Source: an uncultured Roseibium sp. (GTDB lineage Bacteria; Pseudomonadota; Alphaproteobacteria; Rhizobiales; Stappiaceae). Taken from it: 64,000 bases of DNA. The stretch is from NCBI RefSeq assembly GCF_947496995.1, contig NZ_CANMFD010000005.1:248001-312000 (forward strand), given 5' to 3'. How positions within the stretch are numbered: position 1 is the first letter of the stretch; each line of letters begins with the position of its first letter. The notes under the pieces are model-generated. The model ran no database searches and had not been told where the DNA came from. It saw only the letters and a list, made by a program, of their open reading frames with translations. Position numbers and translations under genes: made by a program. Shown piece after piece: positions 6,001-23,500 of the stretch.

Positions 6001-9000
6001 GTCCGGCGGGCCGCTTCCATCTTGAGCGGGCAGGGAGAGACGGCGAAGATCATCGGTTTCGTCGAAAGCGTGCAAGAGGCCGGTTCGGATCTGCGCGCGG
6101 CCGCCGCCGGTATCCTGCCCGACTACATGGTCCCTTCTGAAATCGTCCGCATCGATAGCCTGCCTTCGACACCGAGCGGCAAGGTCGACCGGCGCGCGCT
6201 TGCGGCGCTTCATGTTCCCACACGGCGGACGGGGTCTGCGGTCAGGCATCCGAATACCCCGCGCGAACGCAGCATTCTTGAAATCTGGTCGCATGTGCTC
6301 GACAGGCCGGCCGACGACATGACTGCTGATTTTTTTGCATGCGGGGGCCACAGTCTTGCCGCAGCGAGGCTGATCGGCCTGGTGGAGGAGACCTTCGGCG
6401 TCACGGTATCGCTGAGGGCGTTTTTCGATCAACCGACCCCGGAAGGATTGTGCGCGCTGATCGACGTCGCACCCGACGCTGACGTCAATTCGGCAGATCC
6501 CCCTCCTGAACCTGAAAGCGGGGCCTTCAACCTGTCGCCGGCGCAATACCGCCTCTGGGCCATCGATCAGATGCATGAGGAAAGCCCGGGTTATGCCATG
6601 CCGGCCGCATGGCGGGTTTGCGGGCGGTTCGATCCCGAAGCGTTAAGACGCGCTGTCGAGACGGTTGCCGCGCGGCACGAAGCGCTGCGCACACGGTTTG
6701 AAATGCAGGAAGGTCAGCCGGTCCAGGTCATCGACGCGGTTGCGAACGTCGATTTCACCGCCGAAGCCGTCCTGTCTGACGGCGACCCGATGGACGAAGC
6801 GCTCGCGCGCTGCGCTCTGGAAGTCGCGCGGCCTTTCGACCTGGAGAATGGCCCGCTGCTGCGCGTCAGGCTCTGGACCATCGGCGAGAATGAGCACGTT
6901 CTCTTCGTGAACCTGCATCACATCATCGCGGACGGCCATTCGCTGGATATACTGGCTTCGGAACTTTGGCCGGTTTATGCCGCGATGGCGGACGGCCGCG
7001 TTCCGGACCCGGTGCCGCCTGCCCCGCAATATCGCGCCCATATGGCCAGAACGCAGGTACGGGCGAGCTCTCCGAAGGCGCAGTCGGACCTGCGGTATTG
7101 GCAGGAGGTCCTGACGCCTCTGCCGGAACCGCTCGACCTGCCTGCCGATCGTGCACGGCCAGCGGTGCGCAACCAGAGCGGCGCGTCTCTCGATCTGACC
7201 GCAGGGGAGAGCATGCGGAAAGCTCTCGCTGCCGCTGCCTACCTGCATGGCACGACACCGTTTTCAATCCTGACGGCACTCAGCGCATATGCCTTGCATG
7301 CCCTTTCGGGACAGAACGATCTGATCCTCGGAATACCCGTCGAGGGGCGTCCCGACCGCGGCGGCCGGATGGTAATCGGTCTGTGCGCGGAGACGGTTCC
7401 CCTGCGTGTCACGCTCGATCCCGAGGCGACTTTCGCTGCGCTTGTCAAACAGGTGCGGTCCGGTCTGGCAAATGCGCTCGACCGGCTGGACTGTCCCCTC
7501 GACCGGATCGTCGATGCCTTGAAACCGCCGAGCAGACCTGACCGCTCCATGCTTTTTGACGCGATGGTGAGTTACCGTGTGAGCGAGGCAATGGTCGTGC
7601 CCGGGGGGCTGGAGCTCGAGCCGCTGCCGCTGCCTGTACAGGGAAGTCAGCTCGACCTGGCTCTGTTGTTTGCCGAAACGTCCGGGTCCCTGACGCTTTC
7701 CCTGCAATATGACGATGCGCTGTTCGACACCGCAAGGGTGGAGGGGGTCGGGCAATATGTCCTGTCTTTGCTGGAAACCTGTACCGGTCTGACGGATCTG
7801 CCGCTTCAGGCGCTGCCAAAGCCCGATCCGCACCTACTTTCCCGCGCCGGTGAAAATACTCCGGGACAGGTGGGTACGCCGGCTGGGGAACCGGCGGGCG
7901 GATCGGACCGGATGCTCGATCTGTGGCGTGAGGTACTTGGTCATCCTGCGCTTGGACCCGACGATGATTTCTTTGCTGCCGGTGGTCACAGCCTCACGGC
8001 CGCAAGGCTTGTTCAAAGGGTTTATGGCGACTTCGGTGCCAAGCTGCGGCTGAACGATGTCATGCGCAATCCGACGGCTGCGGCCCTGGCCGGATATGTA
8101 GCCAACCAGGCACCGGAGACGACCGGCCGCGTCAAACGTTTGCCGAAAGCTGCGGACTACGCCCTGTCGCCCGCGCAACGTCGATTCTGGGTGCTTGAGC
8201 AACTTGAAGGGCAGCAGGGGTACGGTCTGCTGTCGGGCATGGCCGAGCTGGAAGGTCCGCTGGATGAAGCGGCATTCGCCATGGCTGTCAGGGCGCTCTG
8301 CAAACGCCATGAGGCGCTGCGTACGGTGATCACGACGGACCCGCAAGGTGAGCCGCGCCAGAAGATACTGGATACGGGCTCCCCTCTCGCCACGATGGAC
8401 TTCAGCGGCAGCAAGTCTCCGGAGGCGGATGCCGAGGTCTGGTTCGCGCCGCTTCTGGCGCGGCCGTTCGATCTGGAAACTGAACCTCTTTTCCGCATCG
8501 GGCTTGCCCGGACCGGCCCTGAAAGCCACGTGCTCGGCTTCTGCCTGCATCATATCGTTGCCGACGGCTGGTCGATGGACGTGCTGATCCGGGATCTGTC
8601 GGCACTCTATGCGGCAGCAAAGAAGACCGGCCCGAGGCCGGCCACACTGCAACGGCAATTCCGCGATTGCGCGGCCCATCAGGCCGAGCGCGCGGACGCG
8701 CCAGAGGATCTGGACTACTGGCGCGACAAGCTTGCCGGTCCGCCGCCACGGCTGGACCTGCCAACTGACCGGCCGCGCCCGAAGCGCCAGGACATCCGAG
8801 GGGCAATGGCGTCGTTCAAACTGGATGCGGTTCGCACAGCAGGTTTGCAATCGCTGGCGGCGGACCGGCACCTCACGCTGTTTGCCGTGCTGACGGCGGT
8901 CTTCCAGACACTGCTTTACCGCTACAGCGGTCAGGAAGATCTTACGATAGGTACGCCGGTCGCCGGGCGGGAGCACCCCGACTACGGCGATCAGGTGGGA

Positions 9001-12000
9001 TTGTTCCTGAACCAGCTTGCGCTGCGCGTGACGGTCGATCCGCAGGCCGGATTCGACGATCTTCTGCAGACGACCGGCGCCACGATCAGCGAAGCGCTCG
9101 ACCACCAGAATACGCCTTTCGACAGGATTATGGAGGCGCTCGATCTGCCCCGTGACATCTCCCGCAGCATTCTTTTCGATGCGATGATCGTCATGCAGGA
9201 TCCGGATCACTCCCGGTTGAGCCTTGGAGATGTGAGCGTGATCCGCCGGACGCAGGCAGCGGCTGTTGCCAAGACGGATCTGACGCTGATCATCGAACCT
9301 GAAGACGATGCAATCGCGGTGCACTTCGAATATGCCACTGCGCTGTTCGATCGCGACAGCATCGAAAGGATGATCGCAGCTTTCGGTCAGGTGATCGACG
9401 CCGTAACCGCCGATCCGGCCGGGCCGCTCGGTGCGCTGGAGATAACTTGTGAAGAGGAGCGGCAGACGCTTCTGGACTGGGGCGGGCTTCCCTCGAACCT
9501 GCATCCTGCAAAGGGCACGATCCTCGACGCGGTCGCGGAATGCGTCGATCGGACACCTGAGGCTCCGGCAACAAGCGACAGGATACGAACCCTCAGCTAT
9601 GAAACCCTTGCCGGTCTGTCCGACCATCTGGCGGGTCAGCTCATTCAGCTTGGTATCGAACCCGGCGCGCGGGTCGGTGTGGAACTGCCGCGGGATGCGC
9701 GCCTGCCTGTCGCGCTGCTGGGTGTGCTGAAGGCCGGCGCTGCCTTCGTTCCGCTGGATCCGGCACTGCCGGAAGAACGGCGCGAGGTGCTGATCGAGGA
9801 CGCCGGTTGCGCACTTGTTCTGACGGATGTTTCGCGGGGCAAGCTGCGTCAGAAGCTGACGGCATTGCTGGATGCACCGCGAAGCGACGTTACCCTGCCG
9901 AAGATCGACGCGCAGATGCTCGCCTATGTCCTGTTTACCTCCGGGTCGACAGGCAACCCGAAGGGGGTGATGATCGAGCACGGCGCTCTGGCGGAATTCT
10001 GCCGGTCGCTGCCTGACGTATTCGGTCTTGGCTCCGAGGACCGCGTCGCGGCGCTGACCAATATCAGTTTCGATATCTCGATCCTGGAACTGCTGGGCAC
10101 TCTGACCTTCGGGGCTTGCGTGCTTGCGATCAACGCGGAAGATGCGCGCGAGCCGGACTGCACGTTGCAAGCGCTGGCCGAGCATAAAGTGACGGTGCTG
10201 CAGGCCACTCCGACCCGCCTTGCGCTCTTGCTGGATATGGACGCTTCCTGCGGAACACAGGTGTTTGCACCGGGTGCCGCGCTGCACACGGTACTCACCG
10301 GAGGGGAAGCGCTGCCGGCGCCTCTCCGCGAGCGGTTGGGAGCACTTGACCACCTGACCGTTTACGAGGTTTACGGCCCGACGGAAACGACGATCTGGAG
10401 TTGCGCGCGGCGCATCACCGAAACGTCGCGGGCCGATCTCGGCCGACCGCTTCCCGGCGAAGGGGTTGCCGTGCTTTCGCAGGAAGGGGCGCTGCAACCG
10501 ATTGGTGCTCCGGGCGAGATTGTTCTTTTCGGTGCGGGGCTGGCACGCGGTTATCTCGATGATCGGGAGCGGACCGCTCAAGCCTTTCCGGAACGTCTCC
10601 GTCCGGTCGCAGGCAGGCTCTATCGTACCGGTGACCAGGCGCGTTGGCGCGCCGACGGGCGGCTGGAGTTCCTGGGCCGGACCGACGGTCAGATCAAGCT
10701 CCGGGGCAACCGGATCGAAATCGGCGAAGTGGAGGCCGCCTTGTCGGCGCAGCCGGGCATCCGCCACGCGGTGGTCGAATTGCGGGGCGTGGACGCTGAA
10801 GCGATGCTGGTCGCGCATGTCACCGGCGACACGGTGGAGCCGCAAGTGATCCTCTCGGCGCTGCGGACGAAACTGCCGGCCGCGGCGGTGCCGGGGCAGA
10901 TTGTCGCCCATGAACAATTGCCGCTGCTGCCGTCCGGCAAGATCGACAGGCGCGCGCTGTCGCTGATCTGCCTGCCCGGGATCGCTGATACCGGTACAGC
11001 CTCCGCCGAGGTGTCCTTCAATCAGTTAGAAGCCGAGATCGCCGCTGTATTTGCCACTCTCCTGAAAACACCGGTGGTGGACCCCGACGCGAGCTTTTTC
11101 GATATGGGTGGCCAGAGCCTTCTGGCTGCTCGGGCGGTGCGGCAATTGCGTGACAGGCTGGGCTGCAAGGTAGATCTCGGTGATCTGTTTGCTCTGCCGT
11201 CGGTACGCGCGCTTGGTGAAGCCCTGCGCTTACGCGGGCTGGCTGACAGGCCTCCGCTCGTTGCATCCCCGAGCCCGGATGCCTGCCTTCTGACACATGC
11301 GCAGCGGAGGATCTGGACGGCGCAGCAGCTTTCGAAAGAGTCGGCGGCCTACGTCATTCACGCTGCGCTGCGTTTCAACGGGACCGTGCGGATCAGAGCA
11401 CTCAAAAAGGCGTTTTCCGCCGTGGTTGCCCGGCACGGGGCTCTCAGAACGGCATTTCTGACCGGGATCGAAGGTCCGCGGCAGGTCATTCATGATGACG
11501 TCCCGTTCACGCTCGTCCGCAGCCGGGCGGACGATGAGGATATGCTGGCGAAACTGCTGAATGAAGACGCAGCGCAGCCTTTCGATCTGACGCAGGCGCC
11601 GCTGTTCCGTGCACGGCTGATCGATGTGAAGAAAAGCAGATCGGTGCTGTCGGTTTCGCTGCATCATGCTGTCGCCGACGGCCGCTCGCTCGAACTGTTG
11701 ATGAGCGATCTGGAGGCTGCCTACAGCGCGGCAATCGACGGACGGGACTGCACTCTTCCGGTGCAGGACATCCAGTTCACGGATTACGCGCGCTGGGAGC
11801 GTCAGCTTCTGGAAGCGCCATCCATCGAGGCGGACCGCGATTATTGGCGCAAAACACTGTCGTCTCTATCTGCCCCGTTCGACCTGCCCTTCGCTTCCGT
11901 CCGGCCTCCGCGCCAGACCACCAGGGGCGAGACGTACCGGAAGGATTTCGATGCGGTGCAGGCAAAGGCGCTTCGCGAACTCGCGGCAAGACAGTCCGCC

Positions 12001-12642
12001 ACCGTATTTGCGGTATTCCTTGCGGCGGTAAGCGCGTTGTTGCAGCGGCTGACCGGCCGCGAGGACATGGTGCTCGGAACGGTGTCGGAAAATCGTGAGC
12101 ATGTGGCGCTCGAGGAGATGATCGGCTGTTTCGTCAATGTGCTGCCACTTCGGATGAAGCCCGCGGCCGACTTGCCGGTCAGTGCGTTGATCTCGCAGGC
12201 CAGAGAAGTGATCACCGGAAGCCTGCGGCACGGTCATGTTCCCTTCGAGGAGATCGTTCACGACATGCAGGCAGCCGTAACGCCCGGCCGTTCGCCGCTG
12301 TTTGACATCGCAGTTACCTGGAATGAACTCGACCACACGGGTCGGACCGAATTCGCAGGCATTCCCATTACCGATCTGAGCCCCGCATCGCCGTTTGCGA
12401 AATATGACCTGCTGTTCGTTTTTTCCCCGTCAGAGTCGGGTGGCATCGCCTGCGCCATCGAATATCGAAGTGACCTCTACAGCCAATCCGACATAGAATA
12501 TCTTGCCAGTTTGCTGGATCGACTTCTGGAAGAGATGGCCGCCGCTCCGGAAAGCCCGATCATGGATCTGGGCATCGGTATCGAGGGAAATACGGTTGCC
12601 CATGGCGAAGCCGCTGACATCGTAAGCATACTGGATATCTGA
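1..12642 (+). CDS. Nonribosomal peptide synthetase, 5'-truncated by window edge (T-C-A-T-C-A-T-C-T-C-A-T-C)
   Basis: The frame is open from base 1, so the gene starts upstream; the ATG at 34 lies inside a carrier (T) domain and is not a start. Counting codons from base 1, domains are: T (GGNSL, Ser26); C (HHAIADG at nt 622); A (TSGSTG at nt 2011); T (Ser1062); C (HHAICDG, nt 3754); A (nt 5173); T (Ser2118); C (HHIIADG, nt 6916); T with no A before it (Ser2664); C (HHIVADG, nt 8548); A (nt 9937); T (Ser3706); C (HHAVADG, nt 11662). Specificity residues aligned by eye to GrsA read DAYWLGGTFK (Val-like), DAQDLGVVDK (the classical Gln code) and DILQLGVIWK (near the Gly code). All C domains keep HHxxxDG and all T domains their serine. 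The protein ends on a complete C domain, so the next A domain is on the following protein, which starts 8 nt after the stop. Family assignment is certain; substrates are inference. Confidence 0.97.
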   Translation, partial: EIWRAFLPAGVMPGPADSFFALGGNSLGAVQIVAQLRDTFGVDLGVRDLFERPSVAEMQGLLGAADETQVAQSSPAIRTGPAQLSPAQERMWLLDRVAADRSAYCICGAFWVDRPLDEARLRAALGAVAQRHEALRCAFEDTGSDTPRLNIAERIEPVLTSRAASSEAEALAHASDLAAQGFDLAKAPLWRVHIEKTGERSLLVICLHHAIADGWSVAVLMRDLSRAYEGGALAAPTGTYSEHASQRRHLLESPAGLESRSYWEDMLADAPRQIELLADRPRPAVKSYRGGTVHSRLEPDVSTALRALAERHRGTLYHVLMALSAALLHRYSGQSDLVIGSVAAGRRSKEEFDQVGCFIENFVLRLQLDPETTFAALLDQTRERLSEAQEHSHYPVEQLGQARGGTGRGGRLGLYNVIVTVEEFAGESLSFDNRPATAAELPSAVSRADLIFYLRPSSGGIDLELEFDADLFDPGTVQRMADHLGELAAAAVSTPESLLPALQFIGEEERDTVVRRFNQTDTAYPREASVVDLFRQVAGKTPEATALRHDAKGVSYGELDRWSDRIAAGLVAGHGVMPGDLVGLIAHRRPALIAAMLGVLKAGATYVPIDPDYPGDRIATLLDIARPKLTLSDTDVGQAKFAVTLKSVEADPEGVVLPELGAEMPAYVMFTSGSTGTPKGVVVPHRAIVRLVRDSDVVPLGPDDRLLLTGALSFDATTYEIWGPLLNGGCLVLADREALLDPWAVADIAAREGVTVMWLTATLFNTFADLNPGVFASLTTVLTGGERISASHVAAAMTANPSLTVVNGYGPTENTTFSATYRIETPPEPGADMPIGRPIANSTIFILDPAGAPVPIGLPGEIWVGGDGLAIGYLGREDLTEERFVCHAEFGRLYRTGDLGLWRPDGTVRYLGRSDDQLKIRGHRIEPGEIAAVLEAQEGVRQAAVIARPGPAGPELAAYIVVEGAVDLTVLRTRLVQQLPAPLVPAHLISLDSLPIDGNGKLDRRALPEPASEPSTAADAAARPVRGPANRIETEISEDWAVLLGAPVRDMDADFYMLGGHSLLAVRLINRIQGRYGPVVSLRDLFEEPTVAGLAARVIDGLAGGAPRVTSPLSALPAAENYPASAQQQRLCFLQQLDGPRPDYTVMGGYWIDGPLDVAALQSALQTVAHRHEALRTRFFTLRGEVRQRIEAEGRLTLEHRDFRKEDDPALAVVQAAQVLAAEGWNLQRGPLARACLFRTGAQRSLFLLSLHHAICDGWSMEILTREITAAYSAACTGQSADLPGLPCQPKEIAAWQSDRRDGPDGRADLAYWTTRLDGHPAQLDLYPGVSEDLDPEALFAHRSIVALDGLTEKLQTLGARHGASLFSTLAALTAATLHRLSGQTDLWIGTPVAARNLPEFEGQVGYLSDMVVLRANVDPQVSMSSLIEQTGLLVTEALSHQDVPFDEIVRELGLKRDQPPFDTIVALEDIPALPDLPGLTLSPFDAGPVGPKTGLSFTYLRGPDRVLRLQLDAHPARFTAERTSQIASAVEHLIRSAAAAQAVARLGALPLQHAAERTRLVQDFGCAPSPAVKPTATVLERFAEQVVGRGEASAVSGCDGTYSYRELDQASNAIAHSLQDRLGVKTGSLVGLALPRDSRLIAAMLGILKAGAAYVPVDPTAPAERVATILTDADCAAVICDRSAPDDCWGFAERMLSTDDLCDRSETAPDVQVRPDDLAYVIFTSGSTGRPKGVMIEHGSVSALVEALEREVYAGLKGVQTVALVAPPIFDASVQQIFAALCGGHRLVVVDAETHRDGRDLIELFASEGVSVSDATPSLLSLLLNLGFAQSEDLALRHILVGGEALPARLAQAVLNAPSCPQLKLTNVYGPTECTVDCSAHTLTSADMKEAGLVSIGRPLGAARLLVLDSAGEPAPIGSPGEIHVGGPGLARGYLDPSLTEERFIRHAEFGRLYRTGDMGAWDSDGSLHFLGRHDDQIKLRGYRIELAEIDAGLNRIPGVRRAASILSGQGETAKIIGFVESVQEAGSDLRAAAAGILPDYMVPSEIVRIDSLPSTPSGKVDRRALAALHVPTRRTGSAVRHPNTPRERSILEIWSHVLDRPADDMTADFFACGGHSLAAARLIGLVEETFGVTVSLRAFFDQPTPEGLCALIDVAPDADVNSADPPPEPESGAFNLSPAQYRLWAIDQMHEESPGYAMPAAWRVCGRFDPEALRRAVETVAARHEALRTRFEMQEGQPVQVIDAVANVDFTAEAVLSDGDPMDEALARCALEVARPFDLENGPLLRVRLWTIGENEHVLFVNLHHIIADGHSLDILASELWPVYAAMADGRVPDPVPPAPQYRAHMARTQVRASSPKAQSDLRYWQEVLTPLPEPLDLPADRARPAVRNQSGASLDLTAGESMRKALAAAAYLHGTTPFSILTALSAYALHALSGQNDLILGIPVEGRPDRGGRMVIGLCAETVPLRVTLDPEATFAALVKQVRSGLANALDRLDCPLDRIVDALKPPSRPDRSMLFDAMVSYRVSEAMVVPGGLELEPLPLPVQGSQLDLALLFAETSGSLTLSLQYDDALFDTARVEGVGQYVLSLLETCTGLTDLPLQALPKPDPHLLSRAGENTPGQVGTPAGEPAGGSDRMLDLWREVLGHPALGPDDDFFAAGGHSLTAARLVQRVYGDFGAKLRLNDVMRNPTAAALAGYVANQAPETTGRVKRLPKAADYALSPAQRRFWVLEQLEGQQGYGLLSGMAELEGPLDEAAFAMAVRALCKRHEALRTVITTDPQGEPRQKILDTGSPLATMDFSGSKSPEADAEVWFAPLLARPFDLETEPLFRIGLARTGPESHVLGFCLHHIVADGWSMDVLIRDLSALYAAAKKTGPRPATLQRQFRDCAAHQAERADAPEDLDYWRDKLAGPPPRLDLPTDRPRPKRQDIRGAMASFKLDAVRTAGLQSLAADRHLTLFAVLTAVFQTLLYRYSGQEDLTIGTPVAGREHPDYGDQVGLFLNQLALRVTVDPQAGFDDLLQTTGATISEALDHQNTPFDRIMEALDLPRDISRSILFDAMIVMQDPDHSRLSLGDVSVIRRTQAAAVAKTDLTLIIEPEDDAIAVHFEYATALFDRDSIERMIAAFGQVIDAVTADPAGPLGALEITCEEERQTLLDWGGLPSNLHPAKGTILDAVAECVDRTPEAPATSDRIRTLSYETLAGLSDHLAGQLIQLGIEPGARVGVELPRDARLPVALLGVLKAGAAFVPLDPALPEERREVLIEDAGCALVLTDVSRGKLRQKLTALLDAPRSDVTLPKIDAQMLAYVLFTSGSTGNPKGVMIEHGALAEFCRSLPDVFGLGSEDRVAALTNISFDISILELLGTLTFGACVLAINAEDAREPDCTLQALAEHKVTVLQATPTRLALLLDMDASCGTQVFAPGAALHTVLTGGEALPAPLRERLGALDHLTVYEVYGPTETTIWSCARRITETSRADLGRPLPGEGVAVLSQEGALQPIGAPGEIVLFGAGLARGYLDDRERTAQAFPERLRPVAGRLYRTGDQARWRADGRLEFLGRTDGQIKLRGNRIEIGEVEAALSAQPGIRHAVVELRGVDAEAMLVAHVTGDTVEPQVILSALRTKLPAAAVPGQIVAHEQLPLLPSGKIDRRALSLICLPGIADTGTASAEVSFNQLEAEIAAVFATLLKTPVVDPDASFFDMGGQSLLAARAVRQLRDRLGCKVDLGDLFALPSVRALGEALRLRGLADRPPLVASPSPDACLLTHAQRRIWTAQQLSKESAAYVIHAALRFNGTVRIRALKKAFSAVVARHGALRTAFLTGIEGPRQVIHDDVPFTLVRSRADDEDMLAKLLNEDAAQPFDLTQAPLFRARLIDVKKSRSVLSVSLHHAVADGRSLELLMSDLEAAYSAAIDGRDCTLPVQDIQFTDYARWERQLLEAPSIEADRDYWRKTLSSLSAPFDLPFASVRPPRQTTRGETYRKDFDAVQAKALRELAARQSATVFAVFLAAVSALLQRLTGREDMVLGTVSENREHVALEEMIGCFVNVLPLRMKPAADLPVSALISQAREVITGSLRHGHVPFEEIVHDMQAAVTPGRSPLFDIAVTWNELDHTGRTEFAGIPITDLSPASPFAKYDLLFVFSPSESGGIACAIEYRSDLYSQSDIEYLASLLDRLLEEMAAAPESPIMDLGIGIEGNTVAHGEAADIVSILDI

Positions 12643-12649
12643 GAATTTC

Positions 12650-15600
12650 ATGACCTTGTCCCAAACCCGCACAACCGATGTCGCCGAAGCCGGTCAGTAC
12701 ACGGCCCGCAGCTATCAGGGACATCGCAGCTTCTGGCAGGGCTGCGCCGAAGAGGTTGAGACACCTTTCCATCTGTCCGGCCTCCAGGGTTTTGCGTCCC
12801 TTGGTGCTGGTGGCGGGTCTTACGAGGTTGGTCTGGGCCTGGAGGCGGGCGCCGTGCTTGCGCGGATCTCCAAGGGTGCTCCGCTTCCGGAGTTCGTCGT
12901 CATCACGGCTGCCTTGAGCCTCGCCCTTTGCACGCATCTGGAAGACGACCATATCGTTTTGTGGACGCCGGCGCTTGCATCGGCTGAGGCCCTTCCGGCC
13001 GGTCACGAAACCGTGCCTCTGGTGCTGCCTTCCCTGCGGACCGGCACGGTGCGTGAATTTCTGGGTTCGGTGAATACCCGTATTACCGAGGCCTATCGCC
13101 ATCAGGACTGGCCAATCGAAACGTTTCTGCCCAATTTTGCGGGTCTGTCGAGCGACGTGCTTCTGGTTGACACCGTCAATCATGTGCCGCTGTTGAGGCG
13201 CAGCAAGGCAGCGCTTCTGGCCGAGATCGTCAGGGATGACGGGATAAGGCTGCGCCTGTCCAGTCCGGCCGGGACACTTCCCGATTTCTATCTGCGGGCG
13301 TTGGCAGATCTGACCGTGCATCTGCTTTGCCAGTTCGCGGATACTGGGGCTTCCCTTGCCTCTCTTGATCTTGTCTCGGATCATGAGAAGGCCAGAGCCA
13401 TCGCTGACGGTCCAGAATCGGCCGGGTCGCCGATGGACACCATTGTGAGCCTGTTTACCGACGCTGTTGCCACGCACGGCCGGAACGCTGCTTTGATCAC
13501 GGCTGGGGAAAGCGTCAGCTACGATGCCCTGGCGGCGCGCGCCGGCGGTGTCCGGGCACGTCTGCATGAACTTGGCGTACAGCCCGGTGATGTGGTTGGC
13601 CTGTTTGTCGATCGCACTCCGGACTGGATTGCGGGACTGATCGGCATCATGGCGCATGGAGCCGTCTATCTGCCGCTCGATCCGGAGCAACCGGAGACAC
13701 GAACAGCCGCCATACTGGACCAGGCGCGGCCCATGCAGCTGTTGGCGGCAGGGACTGTACCGGAGGCGTTTTCCGACCGGGTGCTGCAGATAAGCGCTAT
13801 CCCACCGGTGGTTTGTGATCTCAACGCAGATGGACCGGGGCCGGACGACTTAGCCTATCTGCTGTTCACTTCCGGCTCGACGGGCACACCCAAGGGCGTC
13901 AAGGTCGCCCATCACGGGTTTACCGTCATGATCCGGGACCAGATCCGGCGCCTCGAAAACAGTCCGGCGGATACGGTCGCACAGATCGCGGCGGCGACTT
14001 TCGATGCGTCGCTCTCCGAGATTTTCATGGCGCTGCTTGCCGGTGCGAAGCTCGCCCTGTTTCCGGCTGAGACATTGCGGATGCCCGACCGGTTGCGGGA
14101 GATCTTTGCGCGGCATGAGGTGACAGTGGCCACCTTCACGCCCCGCCTTCTGGAAACGCTGAACGGTGCCCCGCTGCCGACCCTGCGCGCCCTCTTGACG
14201 GCGGGAGATGCGGCTCCGCCCGCGCTGATCGGACGCTATGCCAGGGATTGCACGGTGTTCAATGCCTACGGTCCCACGGAGTGCTCGGTCTGCGCGACGA
14301 TGTACAAGGTGCAGTCCGGAGATGAGGCGGGCGGTGTCCTTCCCATCGGACACCCCATTGCCGGAAACAAGGTGGAAGTGCGTGACGCGGCCGGGCGTCC
14401 CCTGCCTGCCGGACTGCCGGGCGAGATCGTGATGTCGGGTCCGGGTGTCGCCCGCGGGTATCTTGGCCGCGATACTGGTGAGCCACCCTTCGGACGGAAT
14501 GAGGAGACGGGTGAACGGGCCTATGCCACCGGAGATTACGGTATCCATGATGCCGGTGGCGCTCTTGTCTATCTGGGCCGACGCGACGGGCAGATCAAAT
14601 TGCGGGGCTATCGCGTCGAGCGGGGAGAAATCGAAGCGGCACTTTCGGCGCATCCTTCCGTAGCTCAGGCCCATGTGCCGGTTCCGAAAGAAGGCCAGCC
14701 GCTTCTGGCTTATGCCGTCCGTCGCGACCCGGTGGAGGTCTGGCCTTCCATTGCTGAATTCTTTGTCTATGACACCCTCGCCTATGGCGCCATGGCGGGC
14801 GATACGCGGCGCAACCTCAGTTATCGCGCCGCGATGGCACGTCAGGTCGCGGGCAAGGTCGTTCTGGAAATCGGTCCGGGTGCGGAAGCGGTTCTGACGC
14901 GCATGTGCGTGGAGGCCGGGGCACGCAAGGTCTATTCGGTCGAGATCGATCCTGTCACGGCGGACAAGGCGCGGGCGCGTATCCAGGCAGCGGGAATGCA
15001 GGACCGGGTCGAGATCATCACCGGTGACATCATGTCGGTGGCGCTGCCCGAGCTTGCCGATATCCTTGTGGCGGAGATCGTCGGCAGTATCGGCGGATCG
15101 GAGGCCGCAGCCTATCTGGTCAACCACGCCCATGGCCTGATGCGGACGCCGCAATGCCAGATCCCGTCACGCAGCGTGACACGGCTTGCTGGCGTCGATC
15201 TCTCCGGATTGATCGAGGGACCGGGATTTGCGCCGGCCGCTGCCGCGTATGTCGAGCGCATTTTCGAGCAGGTCGGACGCCCGTTCGACTTGCGTCTCTG
15301 CCTTAAAAACCTGCCGCATGACCGGCTTCTGACAAGCCATGACGTTCTGGAAGATCTCAACTTCCGCAGGCCCATGGATCTGGAAAACGAGCATCGGATA
15401 CGGCTTGAGGTAAATGCTCCAGGGCGCATCGACGGCTTGCTCGCCTGGCTTCATCTGATCGTGGATGCGGACCATCCCGACGAGGCCGTGGACATTCTGG
15501 AAAACCCTTCCAGCTGGCTCCCTGTGATCCTGCCTCTCGACACTCCTCTGGAAGACCTTAAAGCCGGAGAGGTGCTTGAAGGGACAGTCACGCGCACCGT

Positions 15601-17527
15601 TTCGGCGAACGGCAGAAATCCGGATTTTGTGATTGAGGGGATCTGCCGTCGTATCGACGGGACGAGCGAGCATTTCAGCTGCGCCGCGCCGCATGCCGCT
15701 GACGGTTTCCGTCAGACGCCTTTGCACCGGAAGGTCTTCGGGTCCGGATCGGCGGTGCCTACCGCGCCGGCCTCGGGCCCGACCGAGTTGCGCGACTGGC
15801 TTGCCGCCTGTCTGCCGGACTACATGCTTCCGGCGGAAGTCATCCCGCTCGACCGTCTCCCGCTGACTCCCAGCGGCAAGGTCGATACGGTTGCCCTGCC
15901 GCGTCCCGCCGTTCAGGCATATGTCGCTCCCCGCAACGCGCTGGAAACCGCGATCCTTTCGGTTTGGCAGAGTGTACTTGGAGCCACGGAGATCGGCGTG
16001 ACCTCCGATTTCTTCTCCGCCGGTGGCGACTCGATATCAGCCATCCAGATCGCATCGCGCCTGGGGAGTGAAGGCATCGTCACGACTGCCGCCGATATTC
16101 TGAGCGAAAGCACCGTCGAACGTCTGGCGCAGATCGTCACGCGCAGCAACGATGCCTCCGGGGTGGATCAGGGTCGCGTAACCGGCCGGATGCCCGCATT
16201 GCCTGCCCAGAAATGGTTCTTCTCGTCTTTCAAAGATCATCGCGGTCATTTCAATCAGGCAATGCGCCTGCGCCTGCAGGGGCGCGCGGACTGGGCGGCG
16301 GTCGAGGCCGCGCTGGCGGCGCTGGCCGAACATCACGACGCGCTGAGAAGCCGCTTCGATCCTGCCGAACCTTTGCCGCAGATCGAACTCGCCGATGTTG
16401 TAGGGCCCGTGCCGCTCGCGGAAATCACGCCGGATGATGCCGATGCCGAGACGGCACTGGCCGACTTGCAGGAAAGTCTGAACCCCGGAGCAGGGCAGGT
16501 AATGGCTGCCCTGCTGCTGCGCGGATCGACAGCGGACGACCTTGTCATCTGTGTGCATCACGTGGTCGTGGATTGGGTCTCCTGGGGAATCCTCATCGCG
16601 GATTTCGAACGCGCCTATCGTGCGGCGAACTCCGGCAATCCTATCGGATTCGATGCCAAAACCGAGCCGGTCAGCGCATGGGCGAACGATGTCGAAGAGG
16701 CAGTTCCCGGGCTTGCGAAGGAAACCGGCGCTTTCTGGCGCGACATGGTGGTGCGCCCGGCACGCGCGCTCTCTCCGGGCGAGCCCGGTCTTTATCGCGA
16801 CAGCGAGAGCCTTGCATTCGCGTTGCCCGCCGATCTTGCGCTCGCCGTCACCGGTCCGGCGAACGAGGCCTATTCGACCCGCCCGCAGGAACTGGTCCTG
16901 ACCGGGCTTGTCCAGGCTCTCGACCGGGTGTGGTCACCAGGCGGGACGATGTTGCTTCTGGAGGGCCATGGCCGCGAACCGGCACTCAGCCCGCGCAATG
17001 TTTCGCGCACGGTCGGGTGGTTCACGATGCTTTACCCGGTGGTTCTCCCCGAGGCTGAAGGAGAAGCCGATCAACGGATCAAGGCGGTCAAGGAAACCCT
17101 GCGCTCTGTGCCGGACAATGGCGCCAGCTATCTGCCGGTTGCGCTCGCAAGCGATGCGGATCCTGTGTTTTCCAGTCTCGCGCCACAGGTGAGTTTCAAT
17201 TTCCTCGGCGGCGGATCAGGGGCGAACGAGGGAGCCTGGTCGGTCGTGGACGCACCCATCGGTCCGGTTGTGGCGGGGGAACATCGCCGTGTCTGTCCCA
17301 TCGATATCGCCGTGGTTGCCCATGGCCCGGAAGTCGTGCTGACCCTGACGTGGAACGGCAAGGCAATCGAAGAGGCGAAGATCAGACGCCTCGCCGAAGA
17401 AATCGAGGCCGACCTTCGCCGCCTCTGCGACCACTGCCAGGCGCTGGGCCGGACCGAGCTCACGGCATCGGACGTTGCCATGTCGGGCCTGTCGCAGGAC
17501 GAGCTCGAGGCGTTGCTGGACGAATGA
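12650..17527 (+). CDS. Nonribosomal peptide synthetase: C-remnant, A interrupted by PRMT-like methyltransferase, T, E
   Basis: 1625 residues. Residues ~15-245 resemble the C-terminal lobe of a condensation domain but lack the HHxxxDG half. The A domain core (~265-690) has TSGSTG near nt 13867 and code residues DASTLAAVC, close to Tyr/Phe codes. Between the A8-like region and the A10 motif (SGKVD, nt ~15872) sits a ~330-residue methyltransferase (~700-1030). It has a class I SAM motif (VLEIGPG, from residue 738), two glutamates nine residues apart (Glu809, Glu818) like the double-E loop of protein arginine methyltransferases, and a following beta-barrel-like part. The T domain has GGDS (Ser1128). 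The last domain is an epimerase, with HHxxxDxxSW from His1303 and an E-type VSRTVGWFT segment. The likely job is to activate an aromatic residue, methylate it and epimerise it. Start ATG is 8 nt after the previous stop; its ribosome site is weak. Confidence 0.95.
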   Translation: MTLSQTRTTDVAEAGQYTARSYQGHRSFWQGCAEEVETPFHLSGLQGFASLGAGGGSYEVGLGLEAGAVLARISKGAPLPEFVVITAALSLALCTHLEDDHIVLWTPALASAEALPAGHETVPLVLPSLRTGTVREFLGSVNTRITEAYRHQDWPIETFLPNFAGLSSDVLLVDTVNHVPLLRRSKAALLAEIVRDDGIRLRLSSPAGTLPDFYLRALADLTVHLLCQFADTGASLASLDLVSDHEKARAIADGPESAGSPMDTIVSLFTDAVATHGRNAALITAGESVSYDALAARAGGVRARLHELGVQPGDVVGLFVDRTPDWIAGLIGIMAHGAVYLPLDPEQPETRTAAILDQARPMQLLAAGTVPEAFSDRVLQISAIPPVVCDLNADGPGPDDLAYLLFTSGSTGTPKGVKVAHHGFTVMIRDQIRRLENSPADTVAQIAAATFDASLSEIFMALLAGAKLALFPAETLRMPDRLREIFARHEVTVATFTPRLLETLNGAPLPTLRALLTAGDAAPPALIGRYARDCTVFNAYGPTECSVCATMYKVQSGDEAGGVLPIGHPIAGNKVEVRDAAGRPLPAGLPGEIVMSGPGVARGYLGRDTGEPPFGRNEETGERAYATGDYGIHDAGGALVYLGRRDGQIKLRGYRVERGEIEAALSAHPSVAQAHVPVPKEGQPLLAYAVRRDPVEVWPSIAEFFVYDTLAYGAMAGDTRRNLSYRAAMARQVAGKVVLEIGPGAEAVLTRMCVEAGARKVYSVEIDPVTADKARARIQAAGMQDRVEIITGDIMSVALPELADILVAEIVGSIGGSEAAAYLVNHAHGLMRTPQCQIPSRSVTRLAGVDLSGLIEGPGFAPAAAAYVERIFEQVGRPFDLRLCLKNLPHDRLLTSHDVLEDLNFRRPMDLENEHRIRLEVNAPGRIDGLLAWLHLIVDADHPDEAVDILENPSSWLPVILPLDTPLEDLKAGEVLEGTVTRTVSANGRNPDFVIEGICRRIDGTSEHFSCAAPHAADGFRQTPLHRKVFGSGSAVPTAPASGPTELRDWLAACLPDYMLPAEVIPLDRLPLTPSGKVDTVALPRPAVQAYVAPRNALETAILSVWQSVLGATEIGVTSDFFSAGGDSISAIQIASRLGSEGIVTTAADILSESTVERLAQIVTRSNDASGVDQGRVTGRMPALPAQKWFFSSFKDHRGHFNQAMRLRLQGRADWAAVEAALAALAEHHDALRSRFDPAEPLPQIELADVVGPVPLAEITPDDADAETALADLQESLNPGAGQVMAALLLRGSTADDLVICVHHVVVDWVSWGILIADFERAYRAANSGNPIGFDAKTEPVSAWANDVEEAVPGLAKETGAFWRDMVVRPARALSPGEPGLYRDSESLAFALPADLALAVTGPANEAYSTRPQELVLTGLVQALDRVWSPGGTMLLLEGHGREPALSPRNVSRTVGWFTMLYPVVLPEAEGEADQRIKAVKETLRSVPDNGASYLPVALASDADPVFSSLAPQVSFNFLGGGSGANEGAWSVVDAPIGPVVAGEHRRVCPIDIAVVAHGPEVVLTLTWNGKAIEEAKIRRLAEEIEADLRRLCDHCQALGRTELTASDVAMSGLSQDELEALLDE

Positions 17528-17563
17528 GACCAGAGCCCAAACTGCTTTTTGCTTCTGCTTTCC

Positions 17564-17573
17564 GGGAGGAGGG
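17564..17573 (+). promoter_or_regulatory. Ribosome binding site that sets the start of the third NRPS gene
   Basis: GGGAGGAGGG lies 6 nt before the ATG at 17580. The open frame extends upstream to an ATG at 17475 inside the previous gene, but that extension (35 residues, Cys/Arg-rich) has no NRPS similarity. The protein from 17580 begins directly with a typical C-domain start (IYPLSPMQ), so 17580 is the start. Confidence 0.8.
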
Positions 17574-17579
17574 CGCAGC

Positions 17580-20500
17580 ATGATCCGCAAGGACCGCATA
17601 CAGGATATCTACCCGCTTTCTCCCATGCAGGAGGCCATGGTGGTGACGGGCCTGCGGGCTCCGGAATCTACCGCCTATACTCAGCAGATCCGGATCGCGC
17701 TGAAAGGCCCGCTGGACAGAGCCGCCTTCGATGCGGCCTGGCAGCAACTGATTGACCGCCACACGATACTCAGAACCGCCTTCATCCTGCGCAATACGCC
17801 GCGGTTTCTCCAGGTTGTCCTGAAACAGGCGTCTGCAGATGTAACCGCGCATGATCTGAGCGCCCTGGATCCGCCGGACCGGGACGTGCGGATCGAGCGG
17901 CTTTGCCTGGCGGAACGGGTGCGCGGTTTCGATCTTGAGGCAGGACCGCCCTCGCGCATTCAGCTGGTGCGGCGATCACCGCAGGAACACCTGATGATCT
18001 GGACGCATCATCACGTGTTGCTCGATGGCTGGTGCCTCGGGCTTCTGGCCGAGGAATTCTTCTCGCTTTATGCCTCCAGGTGCACTGGTCAGCCCTCCGG
18101 CCTCCCACCGGCCCGCGCCTACTGCAATTTCATCAAATGGGTGCAGGACCGGCCGGTTGAAAAGTCACTGCCTTACTGGAAAACCTATCTGGACGGCCAC
18201 GAGCCGATGCCTGCGCTTCCCGCGGGCGACGCGCCGCATTCAGATGCGGGAAAAGCAGATGTGGAGCATACCTTCGGCCCTGAGGTTTTGCGCGCGGTCG
18301 AAGAGCTCGCCGGCCGGCTGCGGTTGACGCCCGGTGCGCTGATCCACGCGGCTTGGGGTGTGTTCCTCGGCAGATATACTGACACAAGCGATGCGCTGTT
18401 CACCTCCGTGATCGCCAACCGTCCTCCTGACCTGCCGGGTGCGGACAGGATGATGGGTCTCCTGATCAACGCGGTGCCGGTTAGAGTGCGTTTTCGCGAG
18501 GCCGAGAGTTTTGCGGACATCGCCCGGCAGGTTCATGCTGATATGCTGGCGCGTGCAGACCATGAACATGTACCGCTTGCCGGTATTCAGGGCGCCGCCC
18601 CGCAGGCTTCCCGGGTCTTCGACACGCTGCTGATTGTCGAGAACTATCCTCTGGGCGGCGCGTCCGGTGTGGAGGCCGCGACCGGGCTGCATGCGATCCC
18701 GGAAGCGCTGACTGAAGAAACGCATGCGCCGATGACACTGCAGGTTTCCCTGGCAGGGTCGCTTCATCTGCATTTTTCCGCAAATCCTGAATGCCACGAC
18801 CGGAAGATACTGGCGCAGTTCGCCCGCCATTTCGCGGACCTGTTCGAAAGACTGGTTGCACAGGCCGAGCGGCCGCTAGGCGAGCATTCCCTGTTGGGCC
18901 GGCAGGAGGCGCGCGTGCTCAGCCAACTCCCGGGAGACCTTCCATCTCCCGGCAGCATGGCTGGGCTGCTTGCAGCCCGGTCGGCAGAGATACCGGATGC
19001 CCCTGCCTTGAGAGCCGGCGGAGAATCCCTGACCTACGCGGAGCTATCCGGCAGGGCCGATCGGCTCGCGGCGCATCTTGGTTCCACGCTCGGCGTGCGC
19101 CTTGGGGACCGGGTCGGCCTGATGCTTCCGCGCAATTCGTGGCTGGTGACGGCCATGCTGGCGCTCATCCGCATCGGCGCCGCCTATGTGCCCCTGGGAC
19201 CGCGCGATCCGGCGGCGCGCACCGGTTTCATCCTGGACGATGCAGGCGTGAGCGCGCTCATCGCCGCGAAGGAGACCTCTCTCCCGACTGGGTATGAAGG
19301 CCCCGTTCTTCGGCTCGATGCGGAAACGGTTCTGCCAGAGGCTGGCTTCGAAGGTCCTGCTCCCTCGCCGGACGATCTGATTTACGTGGCCTATACATCG
19401 GGTTCCACCGGGCAGCCCAAGGGTGTCGAGATCGCCCATCGCAGCGTTTCGGCTTTTACCGCAAGCCTGCCCGCCACGCTGGGGTTCAAATCCGGTCAAC
19501 GTATCCTCGGGCTGACGACGCACACGTTCGATATTTCGGTTCTTGAACTGATTTCCAGTCTTGCACTCGGGCTGGAAATGGTTCTTGCCGACGACGATAC
19601 CGCAGCCGATCCCCTGGCAATCTGTGATCTCATCCGGAAGTCCTCTATCGACGTGCTGCAGGTCACGCCCTCCCGCCTGCGCACACTGGTAGATGCCGGT
19701 GGCTGGGAAAGCCTCCGGGATGTGGAGACCGTTCTGGTCGGCGGGGAGGCATTGCCCACCGACCTCTTCAACGGCCTTCGCGCCCTGCAGAAAACGCGCG
19801 CGATCAACGTCTACGGACCGACGGAAACAACCATCTGGTCGACGGCGCAGGATCTCGGCGACGGACTTTTGTGTGTCGGCCGTCCCTTTCCCGGCGAAGG
19901 GGCATTCATCCGGGGGCGTAACGGGCAGATCATGCCTGTGGGCGCAATTGGGGAATTGTGCCTGACAGGCGCCGGGCTGGGCGTGGGCTATCACGACAGG
20001 CCGGACCTCACGGCGGAGCGCTATCCCGCGCACCCTTTTTCTGCATCCACAAGATACTACCGCACCGGAGATCTGGGGCGCCGGCGCGCCGATGGCCGGT
20101 TCGAAGTGCTGGGGCGTCTGGACGATCAGGTGAAACTGCGCGGTCACAGGATCGAACTGGGCGAGATCGAAACTGTCCTGCGGCAGCTTTCGAGCGTGGA
20201 GGAAGCGGTCGTTCTTGCTAATCCGGACCCGTCCGGCGCTGTCCGCTCTCTCACCGCATACGCTGTCCTTTGCAGTGGAGTTGCATCCGAAACGGTGCTC
20301 GAGCAGTTGGCAGGCAGACTGCCCGTCTACATGATACCCGCGGCGCTGGTACCCTTGCCGAAGCTGCCCCTCATGGCCAGCGGGAAAATCGATCGCTCCG
20401 CGCTGAGACTGATGCAGGGAACGGTACCGGCGGCAATAACCGAGAATGATCCGCCCCAGGACGAGACGGAATCCGGCATTGCCCGTATCTTCGCGGAGGT

Positions 20501-23500
20501 TCTGGAAAGGCCGGCGTTCGGGCGAACGGAGGATTTCTTTGCCGCAGGCGGCCACAGCCTGCTGACTGCCAGGGTGATCGGACGTATCCGGCGCGACTTC
20601 GGATGCTCCGTGTCGATCCGGGAGTTTTTCGACGAGCCGACCGTCGCCAGTCTTGCACGGCATGTGCGCGCGCGCGGCGGAGCACAGGGGACAAGGATCG
20701 AGCCCGCGCCGCAGGCTGCCGACGATCCGCTGACACCCGCGCAGCAGCAGCTCTTCGTGCTTGACCGGATCAGGCCGGGCCGGGCCGATTATGTCGTGTC
20801 CACCGCCTTCACGCTTCAAGGTTGCCTTGACGTTTCCGCCCTGCGCCGGGCGCTCGATGGGGTAATGCAGCGTCACGAAAGTCTGCGCACGGCTTTCGTG
20901 ATCAAGGACGATGCGCCGCGGCAGGTTGTCCAGCCGCCAAGGGCTCACACCTTCGAGCAGGCAGATGCGCCGGATCTTGCCACCGCGGAGGACATCATTG
21001 CCGCTTTCATGGCATGCGGCTTCGATCTTTCGGAAGGCTACCTTTCGCGTGCGTTGCTCGTTCGGATAAACGGGAACGAACACGTTCTTGCGTTTGCGCT
21101 CCATCATATTGTGGGCGATGCCATTTCGCTGGGCGTGATCGCCCGGGATCTTTCGCGGCTTTACAATGCTGAAAAGGCGACGCGCTCCGACGCCTTGAAG
21201 CCGCTGGCACTGCAGCAGCGGGATATCGCCTGCTGGATCAGTGCCCGGTCGGACGGTCCGGAAATGAGCGAAGCGGCAGCCTATTGGGCGGAGACGATGA
21301 AGGGGCCTGTTCCCCGGCTCGACCTTCCGCTTGACCATCCCCGCCCTGCGAACCTTTCCGATGCGGGAGAAATCGTCAGCAACGGCATCGATCCGGACCT
21401 GTCTCTGGCGCTGCAGCAACGGGCCCAGGCAGCGGGTATCAGCCTGTTCACCCTTGTCGCCGCCATCACCGCCCTCACCCTGACGCGCTGGTCGGGGCAG
21501 GATGAGGTTGTTGTCGGCACCGCCGTCGCCGGACGCGATCTGGTTGAACTGGAGAGCCAGGTCGGCCTTTATGTCAACATGGTGCCGCTCCGTTTCAGCG
21601 TGGCGGACCAGGAAAACACGGATGCGTTTCTGGCTGCAGCGCACGCCGTCGTGCTGGGTGCGCTTGACCATCAGCACTATCCCTATGACCGGTTGATCGA
21701 CAGCCTGCAGATCCAGCACGATCCGGCCCGTACGCCGCTTGTCGAGGTCATGATCGGACTGCAGCGCCTGACGCAAAGCCGGGCTGAATTCGACGGGCTA
21801 ACCGTCAACGCACTGCCGCATGCCGGCCGATCGGTGCGTTTCGACCTCTCCTTCGATGTGGTGGAGCGTGACGAAGGCTGTTTCAGCCTTGAACTCAGCT
21901 ATCGGAAGAGCGTTTTTCCCGCCGCGCGTGCCGAACGTCTGGCCCGGAGCTGGTGCCATGTCGCCCGACAGATGGTCGAGATGGCAGCGATGCCACTCAA
22001 TCACCTGGCTATCCTGCCGCAAGTCTCGGCTGAAGAGCCTGAAGCAATCGCGCCTGATACGCTCACCGACATGTTTGCCAGGCAGGTGGCCCGAACCCCA
22101 AAAGAAACAGCGTTGGTTGAGGCGGGCAGGAGCCTGACCTATCGCAGCCTCGCCGACAAGGTTCAGACCCTGGCGCGGGCGCTGGTTTCAAGTCACGGTG
22201 CCGCACCGGGAGACCGGGTCGGCCTGTTTCTGTCCCGGTCGGCCGACGCGGTAATCGCCCTTCTTGCGATACAGCACGCGGGTGCGGCTTATGTGCCGCT
22301 TGATCCGAAGTTGCCGGATGCGCGGCTCCGGCAGATCGCGGAACAGGCCGGTATCGCTCTCGTGGTGACCGGTGACGAGGGGCTGAACCGCGCCAAAACG
22401 CTTTTCCCGGTTCGAGTGGCAACGGTTGCGGACAAGACGCACGAGACAGCCGCTCTGCCTTCTGTCGGACCGAATGACCTGGCCTATGTCCTTTTCACGT
22501 CCGGCACTACGGGCGTGCCCAAGGGGGTCATGATCGAACATGGCAGCGTGACAAATCTGGTCCGCTGGATGAACGGCACAATTCATGGTGGCAGAGACGC
22601 GGTTCCGGGCCATCACGCCGCCCTCGCGTCACTCGGTTTCGACGTTTCGGTACATGAGATTTATGCCGCGCTTCTGCTCGGCCATGCGCTGCATATCATC
22701 CCGGATGAGATCAAGACCGATCCGCGTCGCCTCTGCGCGCAAATTGCCAGAGAGGGGATTACCTCGCTCAGCCTGACCCCAAGCCTTCTTTCGATTCTCC
22801 TGGATGCCGGTCAGATCGATTCGGCCTGGCCGGTCCGTACGCTGCTGCTTGGTGCGGAGGAGCTGCCGATTCCGATGGTCGAAGCGGTTAGAAAGGCCGC
22901 ACAGCAGCCGGATTTGCGCATTTTCAATCTTTACGGTCCCAGCGAGGTCTGCGTCGAGGCGACGTGGCACGAGTTCGAAGCCGATCTGTCGCAGCTTACC
23001 GCGGCACCGATCGGGGTGCCGATCGATGGGGCCGAGGTGCTGATTTGCGATGCGAATTTGCGTCCACTGCCGCCCGGGGTCGCCGGCCAGATCTGTATCG
23101 GCGGACTGGGATTGGCACGGGGCTATCTGAACGCGCCCGAACTCACGGACGCCGTTTTTGTGCCGCATCCGCAGCGGCCCGGCGCCCGGCTCTACCTGAC
23201 GGGAGATTTCGGCTACCGCCGCGAGGATGGGGTTCTGATGTTTTGCGGCCGGCGGGACCATCAGATAAAAATCCGCGGCCACCGGATCGAGCTGCTGGAA
23301 ATCGAACGGCAGCTCACCGCCCTTCCAGGCATTCGTTCGGCTGTCGTGACAGCTCCCGAAGGACCGGCAGGGCGCGATCTGGTCGCCTATGTGGCCGCCG
23401 CAACGCTGGACGCCGAGGCCGTGCGCCAGTCGCTGGCTGCTGTCCTTCCCGCATATATGGTGCCGGAACGCTACGTCCGGCTCGACAAGATCCCGCTGAA

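Follow-up and report, generated by a model that had tools for sequence, protein, structure and literature searches.

A methyltransferase that folds like the protein arginine methyltransferases (PRMTs) lies inside the tyrosine-coded adenylation (A) domain of an NRPS protein encoded in the window, i.e., the whole 64,000-nucleotide stretch of DNA of an uncultured Roseibium sp. that was analysed. Computation demonstrated its fold, its insertion site, the conservation of its residues and its link to Tyr codes. The insert is very probably an in-cis phenol O-methyltransferase of the PRMT fold acting on carrier-bound tyrosine, and the window is a new alphaproteobacterial example of an already described type of Tyr O-methyltransferase insert. 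The relevant features are as follows.

34..12642, + strand: 3' part, in the window, of the upstream NRPS frame, the start of which lies ~10 kb beyond the window's left end
12650..17527, + strand: NRPS protein of 1625 aa (half-C, A with the methyltransferase inside, PCP, E-type C-family domain)
12722..13369, + strand: vestigial C-terminal half of a condensation (C) domain that lacks HHxxxDG (residues ~25-240; recognised by eye in the translation)
13436..14731, + strand: main part of the A domain, reaching past motif A8 (residues 263-694; Pfam/TIGR01733)
14732..15754, + strand: PRMT-fold methyltransferase insert, Rossmann part and beta-barrel (residues ~695-1035)
14801..14812, + strand: Asp718..Arg721 (alignment)
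14858..14890, + strand: SAM-binding motif VVLEIGPGAEA (residues 737-747)
15071..15103, + strand: double-Glu loop AEIVGSIGGSE with Glu809 and Glu818 (alignments)
15509..15517, + strand: SSW at the place of the PRMT THW loop (residues 954-956; Ser at the His position)
15779..15889, + strand: C-terminal rest of the A domain with A9 and A10 (Lys1077; profile search and translation)
15950..16135, + strand: PCP (carrier) domain, GGDS (profile search and translation)
16184..17479, + strand: C-family domain of the epimerase (E) type (HHVVVDW, TIGR01720)
17475..28946, + strand: downstream NRPS protein, C-A-PCP modules and a terminal thioesterase

The insert splits motif A8 (GYRVERGEIE) from A9 (LPDYMLP) and A10 (PSGKVD). 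It thus sits in the a8-a9 gap of an A domain that is complete in other respects and is followed by a carrier domain, which is the layout of the side-chain (Ms) type of interrupted A domains. In the predicted model of residues 259-1164 (pLDDT 86.8, pTM 0.68), the A domain parts on either side of the insert were folded. MAFFT alignments, read at what we take to be the code positions, gave the specificity code DASTLAAVCK, a Tyr-type code, in line with the Tyr/Phe-like code noted in the initial annotation. The C-family domain was taken for an epimerase on the basis of TIGR01720 and of what we presume to be E-domain motifs (HHVVVDW). The PF00668 search of the 1625-aa protein returned no stretch at the half-C region (12722..13369). 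This half condensation domain opens the protein though the upstream protein ends with a full C domain.

The upstream NRPS has 7582 aa by arithmetic (window 34-12642 and L085:8894-19100), and the full C domain at its end should feed the methylating module. The cluster starts upstream of the window with a 2176-aa AMP ligase-KS-AT-KR (PKS) protein, next to which a phosphopantetheinyl transferase and a thioesterase are encoded. The gene order is AMP ligase-PKS protein, 7582-aa NRPS, 1625-aa methylating NRPS and the last NRPS with the thioesterase, with two ABC transporter genes downstream on the opposite strand. The third (last) A domain of the 17475-28946 protein (residues ~2595-2998) carries the Tyr-type code DAATIAAVCK without an insert. 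Judged from its genes, the cluster looks like a lipopeptide assembly line.

Structure and fold comparison showed that the PRMT fold covers nearly the whole insert, as a class I SAM domain followed by a beta-barrel, which upheld the earlier proposal of a PRMT-type enzyme inside the A domain. Structural alignments of the predicted structure with PRMT1, PRMT6, CARM1 and PRMT8, a re-examination of Foldseek's own matches, had identities of 17-25%. The residue numbers given initially were correct according to translation and alignment. The Glu809/Glu818 pair, nine residues apart, was confirmed, and the family profile aligns it with SEWMGYGLLHES of PRMT6; alignments and fold scores, rather than distances, served to assess the geometry of the pair. 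Both glutamates sit at what we take to be the place where PRMTs grip the guanidinium group, and Asp718 and Arg721 align with residues that are presumably Asp51 and Arg54 in PRMT1 numbering. SSW occupies the place of THW as had been noticed: Trp956 is kept, and the THW-loop His of the PRMT family proper is absent, with Ser955 at its position. The N-terminal helix at the place of the PRMT YFxxY motif reads VYDTLAY in the window, and the aligned PRMT6 itself reads YECYSDV. An ordinary NRPS N-methyltransferase insert was considered and rejected, as the PF08242 (Methyltransf_12-type) profile did not match the window protein at E ≤ 1 and BLASTP found no similarity (E 3.9) between the insert and the N-methyltransferase region of the AprJ-like protein described below.

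The protein search with the insert gave 311 matches, the best 120 of which, the window's own included, were listed. Among these best 120 of 311, identity reached 90% in Roseibium marinum, near 60% in Acetobacteraceae and ~42-50% in Azospirillum, Rhodobacterales, methanotrophs and cyanobacteria. Both glutamates were present in 118/120 of these proteins and Glu/Gln (Gln at 818) in 2/120, and the A code beside the insert was DASTIAAVCK (42), DAATIAAVCK (35), DASTVAAVCK (15) or DASTLAAVCK (3) in 95/120. The scan of genome contigs yielded at least 397 relatives, from which 80 loci, including twelve named phyla, were kept for counts. In these, both glutamates were found in 77/80, Arg721, Tyr707 and Arg882 in 80/80, Trp956 in 79/80 and Asp718 in 74/80, and the THW-His position was taken by Ser (36), Cys (35), Asn (5), Ala (2), Ile (1) or Gly (1) and never by His. 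Glu809 or both glutamates were missing in L036, L066 and L078. Together with the two proteins with Gln818, these three loci imply that the pair is dispensable for gene persistence or that those inserts are inactive. L078:4378-12156, in which both glutamates were lost (Gly, Asp), has a cytidine-deaminase-like domain behind its carrier. Within the window's own family, Stappiaceae, the insert was detected at E ≤ 1e-20 in 2/87 genomes searched, one being that of the window and the other having an insert at 90% identity; hence it is scattered there.

Free-standing PRMT-type methyltransferases of ~420-450 aa were also observed (P0125, P0127-P0129, P0131-P0134, P0140, L042 and L044). The P entries among them carry the TubC_N docking domain in a precomputed Pfam list, and these look like an in-trans version that may dock to an NRPS. 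Other domain orders bear on the substrate. P0116 consists of an aromatic amino acid lyase (ammonia-lyase), an AMP ligase, a carrier and the PRMT-type methyltransferase, and its substrate is expected to lack the alpha-amine owing to the ammonia-lyase fused upstream. The same is suggested for L010:2194-12948 (Pfam order AMP ligase, KR, PRMT-type methyltransferase, carrier, PKS), with which L024, L039, L050 and L060 were grouped by tree and ORF length, Pfam having been run on L010 only.

In the 80 kept loci, 144 A domains were located, 65 with the insert behind them and 79 without. Classes set by letter pattern comprised 45 Tyr-type, 9 Arg-type, 3 Hpg-like and 8 other codes in the former, and 3 Tyr-type, 1 Arg-type, 73 other and 2 incomplete in the latter. 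Tyr-type codes were enriched beside the insert (Fisher p 2e-17, the 2 incompletes excluded), a value overstated by the mutual relatedness of the domains, though the difference itself is clear.

The genome of Moorena bouillonii PNG5-198 contained one insert match, in a 2954-aa protein (L016:3055-11919) with the Pfam order TubC_N, C, A, PRMT5-like, PCP, C, A, Methyltransf_11/12, PCP. AprJ, encoded behind AprI, is described as a 2955-aa protein with the order C, A(Tyr), MT, T, C, A(Ala), MT, T, and O-methyl tyrosine, then N-methyl alanine, are predicted for its modules in the apratoxin paper (PMC3075265). The L016 protein fits AprJ, being identified by length (2954 vs 2955 aa), domain order and host, not accession. 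One loose end in this identification is that AprI, expected in front, does not form a single full-length frame in the M. bouillonii record, where a KR-ACP end of 316 aa, its KR cut at the start, lies upstream of L016:3055-11919. The insert of the Tyr module, matching PRMT5, is the sole methyltransferase of that module, and the methyltransferase of the second module matches Methyltransf_11/12. If the L016 protein is AprJ, one protein thus has O-methyl-Tyr matched to the PRMT type and N-methyl-Ala to the ordinary type. The window insert is 43% identical to the Tyr-module insert over 345 columns, and the codes differ at one position (DASTLAAVCK in the window, DASTVAAVCK in Moorena bouillonii PNG L016:3055-11919). 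The letters of the Tyr-type code were sought in the literature and not found; their meaning was anchored on AprJ. Altogether, the phenol oxygen is favoured because of the AprJ-like protein, the presumably amine-free substrates of P0116 and L010 and the A-code counts. The initial annotation had proposed methylation of the amino nitrogen or of a side chain; the module residue was retained as the likely target, and the site was narrowed to the side chain.

At nine loci, the residue at code position 239 is Glu: L061 (L061:3127-8328, DVEDIGAIT), L063 (DVENIGAIT), L071, L074 and L076 (DVENVGAIT), L057 and L067 (DVEDLGCIS), L075 (DMESIGGVA) and L070 (DVEELGVVT). The L061 code DVEDIGAITK fully fits the Arg-activating pattern of a survey (D, A/V, E, D, I/V/L, G, A, V/I, T/D, K), in which related codes are also assigned to residues such as Lys and homoarginine (PMC12283262). 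The ApnA A1 genotypes DVEDIGAIEK, DVEDIGAVEK and DVESIGAIEK are reported with Arg only in anabaenopeptins, and Tyr or Lys is taken as well by some of the ApnA A1 genotypes whose codes are similar (PMC5311044). Among single-domain PDB matches, ApnA A1 ranked first for the A domain of L061 (489 bits; two-stretch entry 430, McyB 400), linear gramicidin synthetase reaching 653 bits solely as two domains (337 + 316). The A domain of the window lacks this resemblance to ApnA (173 bits vs 217 for GrsA). By code and match, the L061 A domain likely takes Arg; the other eight loci were assigned by code alone, as Arg-type or acidic-pocket codes. The inserts of all nine keep both glutamates and are possibly NRPS-embedded arginine methyltransferases.

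Residue 702 is Gly in 9/9 Arg-coded vs Ala/Ser in 50/50 Tyr-coded rows, and residue 811, two after the first Glu, is Ile/Met in 9/9 vs Val in 50/50, with the columns chosen on 8/9 Arg rows (L070 alone held out) and a broad Tyr-like class, set by the first code letters, that takes in L015, L023, L036, L045 and L058. The 34 rows outside this comparison (12 other, 12 free-standing, 7 without an A domain, 3 Hpg-like) include some with mixed letters. Among the free-standing proteins, P0139 and P0142 (both Allokutzneria), P0138 and P0146 have Arg-type letters, cyanobacterial P0125 (TubC_N), L042 and L044 have Tyr-type letters, and P0140 (Magnetococcales, TubC_N) has Gly702 and Ile811. A co-change test of the A code against insert residues gave no statistical support, with one supported independent pair and three possible ones. 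The insert of L061 shares 65% identity with the L057 and L067 inserts, 60% with that of L071 and 51% with that of L075, and also up to 64% with Tyr-coded cyanobacterial inserts; by overall identity (8 Arg rows), the classes were poorly separated, the mean being 57% among Arg rows and 48%, with values up to 67%, between Arg and Tyr rows. The base of the family tree rooted with two PRMTs, which left out L066, L068, L078, L080 and L081, gave no order for Arg- vs Tyr-coded rows. In the midpoint-rooted tree with these five, the root of which is arbitrary, the Tyr-coded rows and the cyanobacterial Arg-coded pair lie inside a 72-row set (99*), and the Acidobacteriota Arg-coded rows lie outside it.

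We put forward, tentatively and with less than even confidence, the hypothesis that PRMT-fold domains entered NRPS lines and split by the side chain chosen by the A domain, into a phenol branch that keeps the Glu pair, including that of the window, and a branch acting on the guanidino group of carrier-bound arginine. The arginine branch would have hosts among Acidobacteriota and cyanobacteria, possibly also Bacteroidota and Gemmatimonadota, and the arginine/tyrosine change would be tuned by a few positions (702, 811, 813 and 842).

Three other activities were weighed for the window insert. Methylation of the alpha-amino nitrogen of tyrosine, as by ordinary A-domain-embedded NRPS methyltransferases, would agree with a review table in which four of the six a8-a9 rows are N-methyltransferases only, one being O and one O and N (PMC11355689). 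It is nevertheless highly unlikely, given the lack of BLASTP similarity to the N-methyltransferase region of the AprJ-like protein, the presence in LynB3/LynB5 of the PRMT-like type beside a separate N-methyltransferase (PMC10127204) and the substrates without an alpha-amine that P0116 and L010 should offer. The insert might instead methylate the aromatic ring, at a carbon or elsewhere, or be inactive by now, since the THW His occurs in 0/80 kept loci. The retention of both glutamates in the window and in 77/80 loci, the assignment of the AprJ module as O-methyl, not C-methyl (PMC3075265), and the 90% identity to Roseibium marinum make this highly unlikely as well. A true arginine methyltransferase, modifying arginines of the peptide or of proteins, is suggested by the PRMT fold, the double Glu and the relatives in Arg-coded A domains. 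It is hardly credible here, as the window A domain is Tyr-coded and the insert has the Tyr-set residues (Ala/Ser at 702, Val at 811; 50/50 rows including the window) and not the Arg set (Gly at 702, Ile/Met at 811; 9/9).

For tyrosine O-methylation, the preferred activity, the following course is proposed. The A domain would activate L-tyrosine and load the neighbouring carrier domain, which would offer the tyrosyl thioester to the insert; methylation after loading on the carrier is also stated in the review (PMC11355689). We infer that the insert would then move a methyl from SAM to the para-hydroxyl, giving O-methyl-tyrosine on the PCP. The conserved Glu809 and Glu818 probably bind or orient and deprotonate the phenol in the Tyr branch instead of holding guanidinium. 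The preceding C domain, at the end of the upstream protein, would condense the residue, perhaps already as O-methyl-tyrosine, and the E domain would convert it to the D form.

The PRMT fold is known mainly from eukaryotic arginine methylation. It is distributed across bacterial peptide synthetases as a presumed Tyr O-methyltransferase that keeps the arginine-binding glutamates. New here are the conservation of both glutamates in 77/80 loci though most of the A domains are Tyr-coded, and the nine PRMT-type inserts in A domains with putative Arg-type or acidic-pocket codes. How the double-Glu loop deals with a phenol and whether the Arg-coded relatives methylate arginine are now testable questions; if the two-branch hypothesis is true, so is an enzyme-level arginine/tyrosine switch. 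In the open-licence literature, the lyngbyapeptin paper was the sole one of its kind among the matches listed for arginine methyltransferase with NRPS/adenylation, and no report on Arg-coded PRMT-type inserts was found among the matches listed. A PRMT-type profile could correct automatic N-methyltransferase labels on such inserts, as for HcaA, for which antiSMASH predicted two NMT domains (PMC10949194).

PRMT1, PRMT6, CARM1 and PRMT8 share with the window domain the Rossmann and barrel fold, the double Glu, the Asp/Arg of the N-terminal helix and the Trp of THW. Unlike them, the window domain is built into an A domain, has the THW His replaced and is expected to act on tyrosyl-PCP. Moorena bouillonii is said to make columbamide; the AprJ-like insert was the sole match in the one M. 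bouillonii genome scanned at E ≤ 1e-3, so the ColG domain, if encoded in that genome, is no near relative. Compared by description, the KtzH and ColG inserts also lie between a8 and a9 and perform side-chain O-methylation, but their substrate is Ser (PMC11355689).

No characterised NRPS of this architecture had been known to the initial annotation, but the architecture is on record: LynB3 and LynB5 of lyngbyapeptin were described in 2023 as A-domain-embedded and similar to arginine methyltransferases (PMC10127204), and Tyr O-methyltransferase domains have been published for apratoxin (PMC3075265) and for vatiamide and hectoramide (PMC10949194). LynB3-OMT, the first methyltransferase in the Tyr A domain, is presumed there to be a phenol O-methyltransferase (PMC10127204), and O-methylation of Tyr is the function assigned to HcaA-MT1 and VatN (PMC10949194). 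The published assignments appear to be predictions from product structures and sequence, not from assay (PMC10127204, PMC3075265, PMC10949194). The OMT domains of LynB3 and LynB5, VatN and HcaA-MT1 resemble the window insert, by description only, as NRPS Tyr O-methyltransferase domains; unlike in the window, a second, N-methyltransferase domain comes after the O-methyltransferase in LynB3, LynB5 and HcaA. The AprJ Tyr module differs from that of the window in being cyanobacterial, in having a TubC_N docking domain and a full C domain in front and in the domain description of PMC3075265, which gives no E domain for AprJ. Like the window module, that of Moorena bouillonii (L016) bears a PRMT-type insert in a Tyr-coded A domain, at the 43% identity given above.
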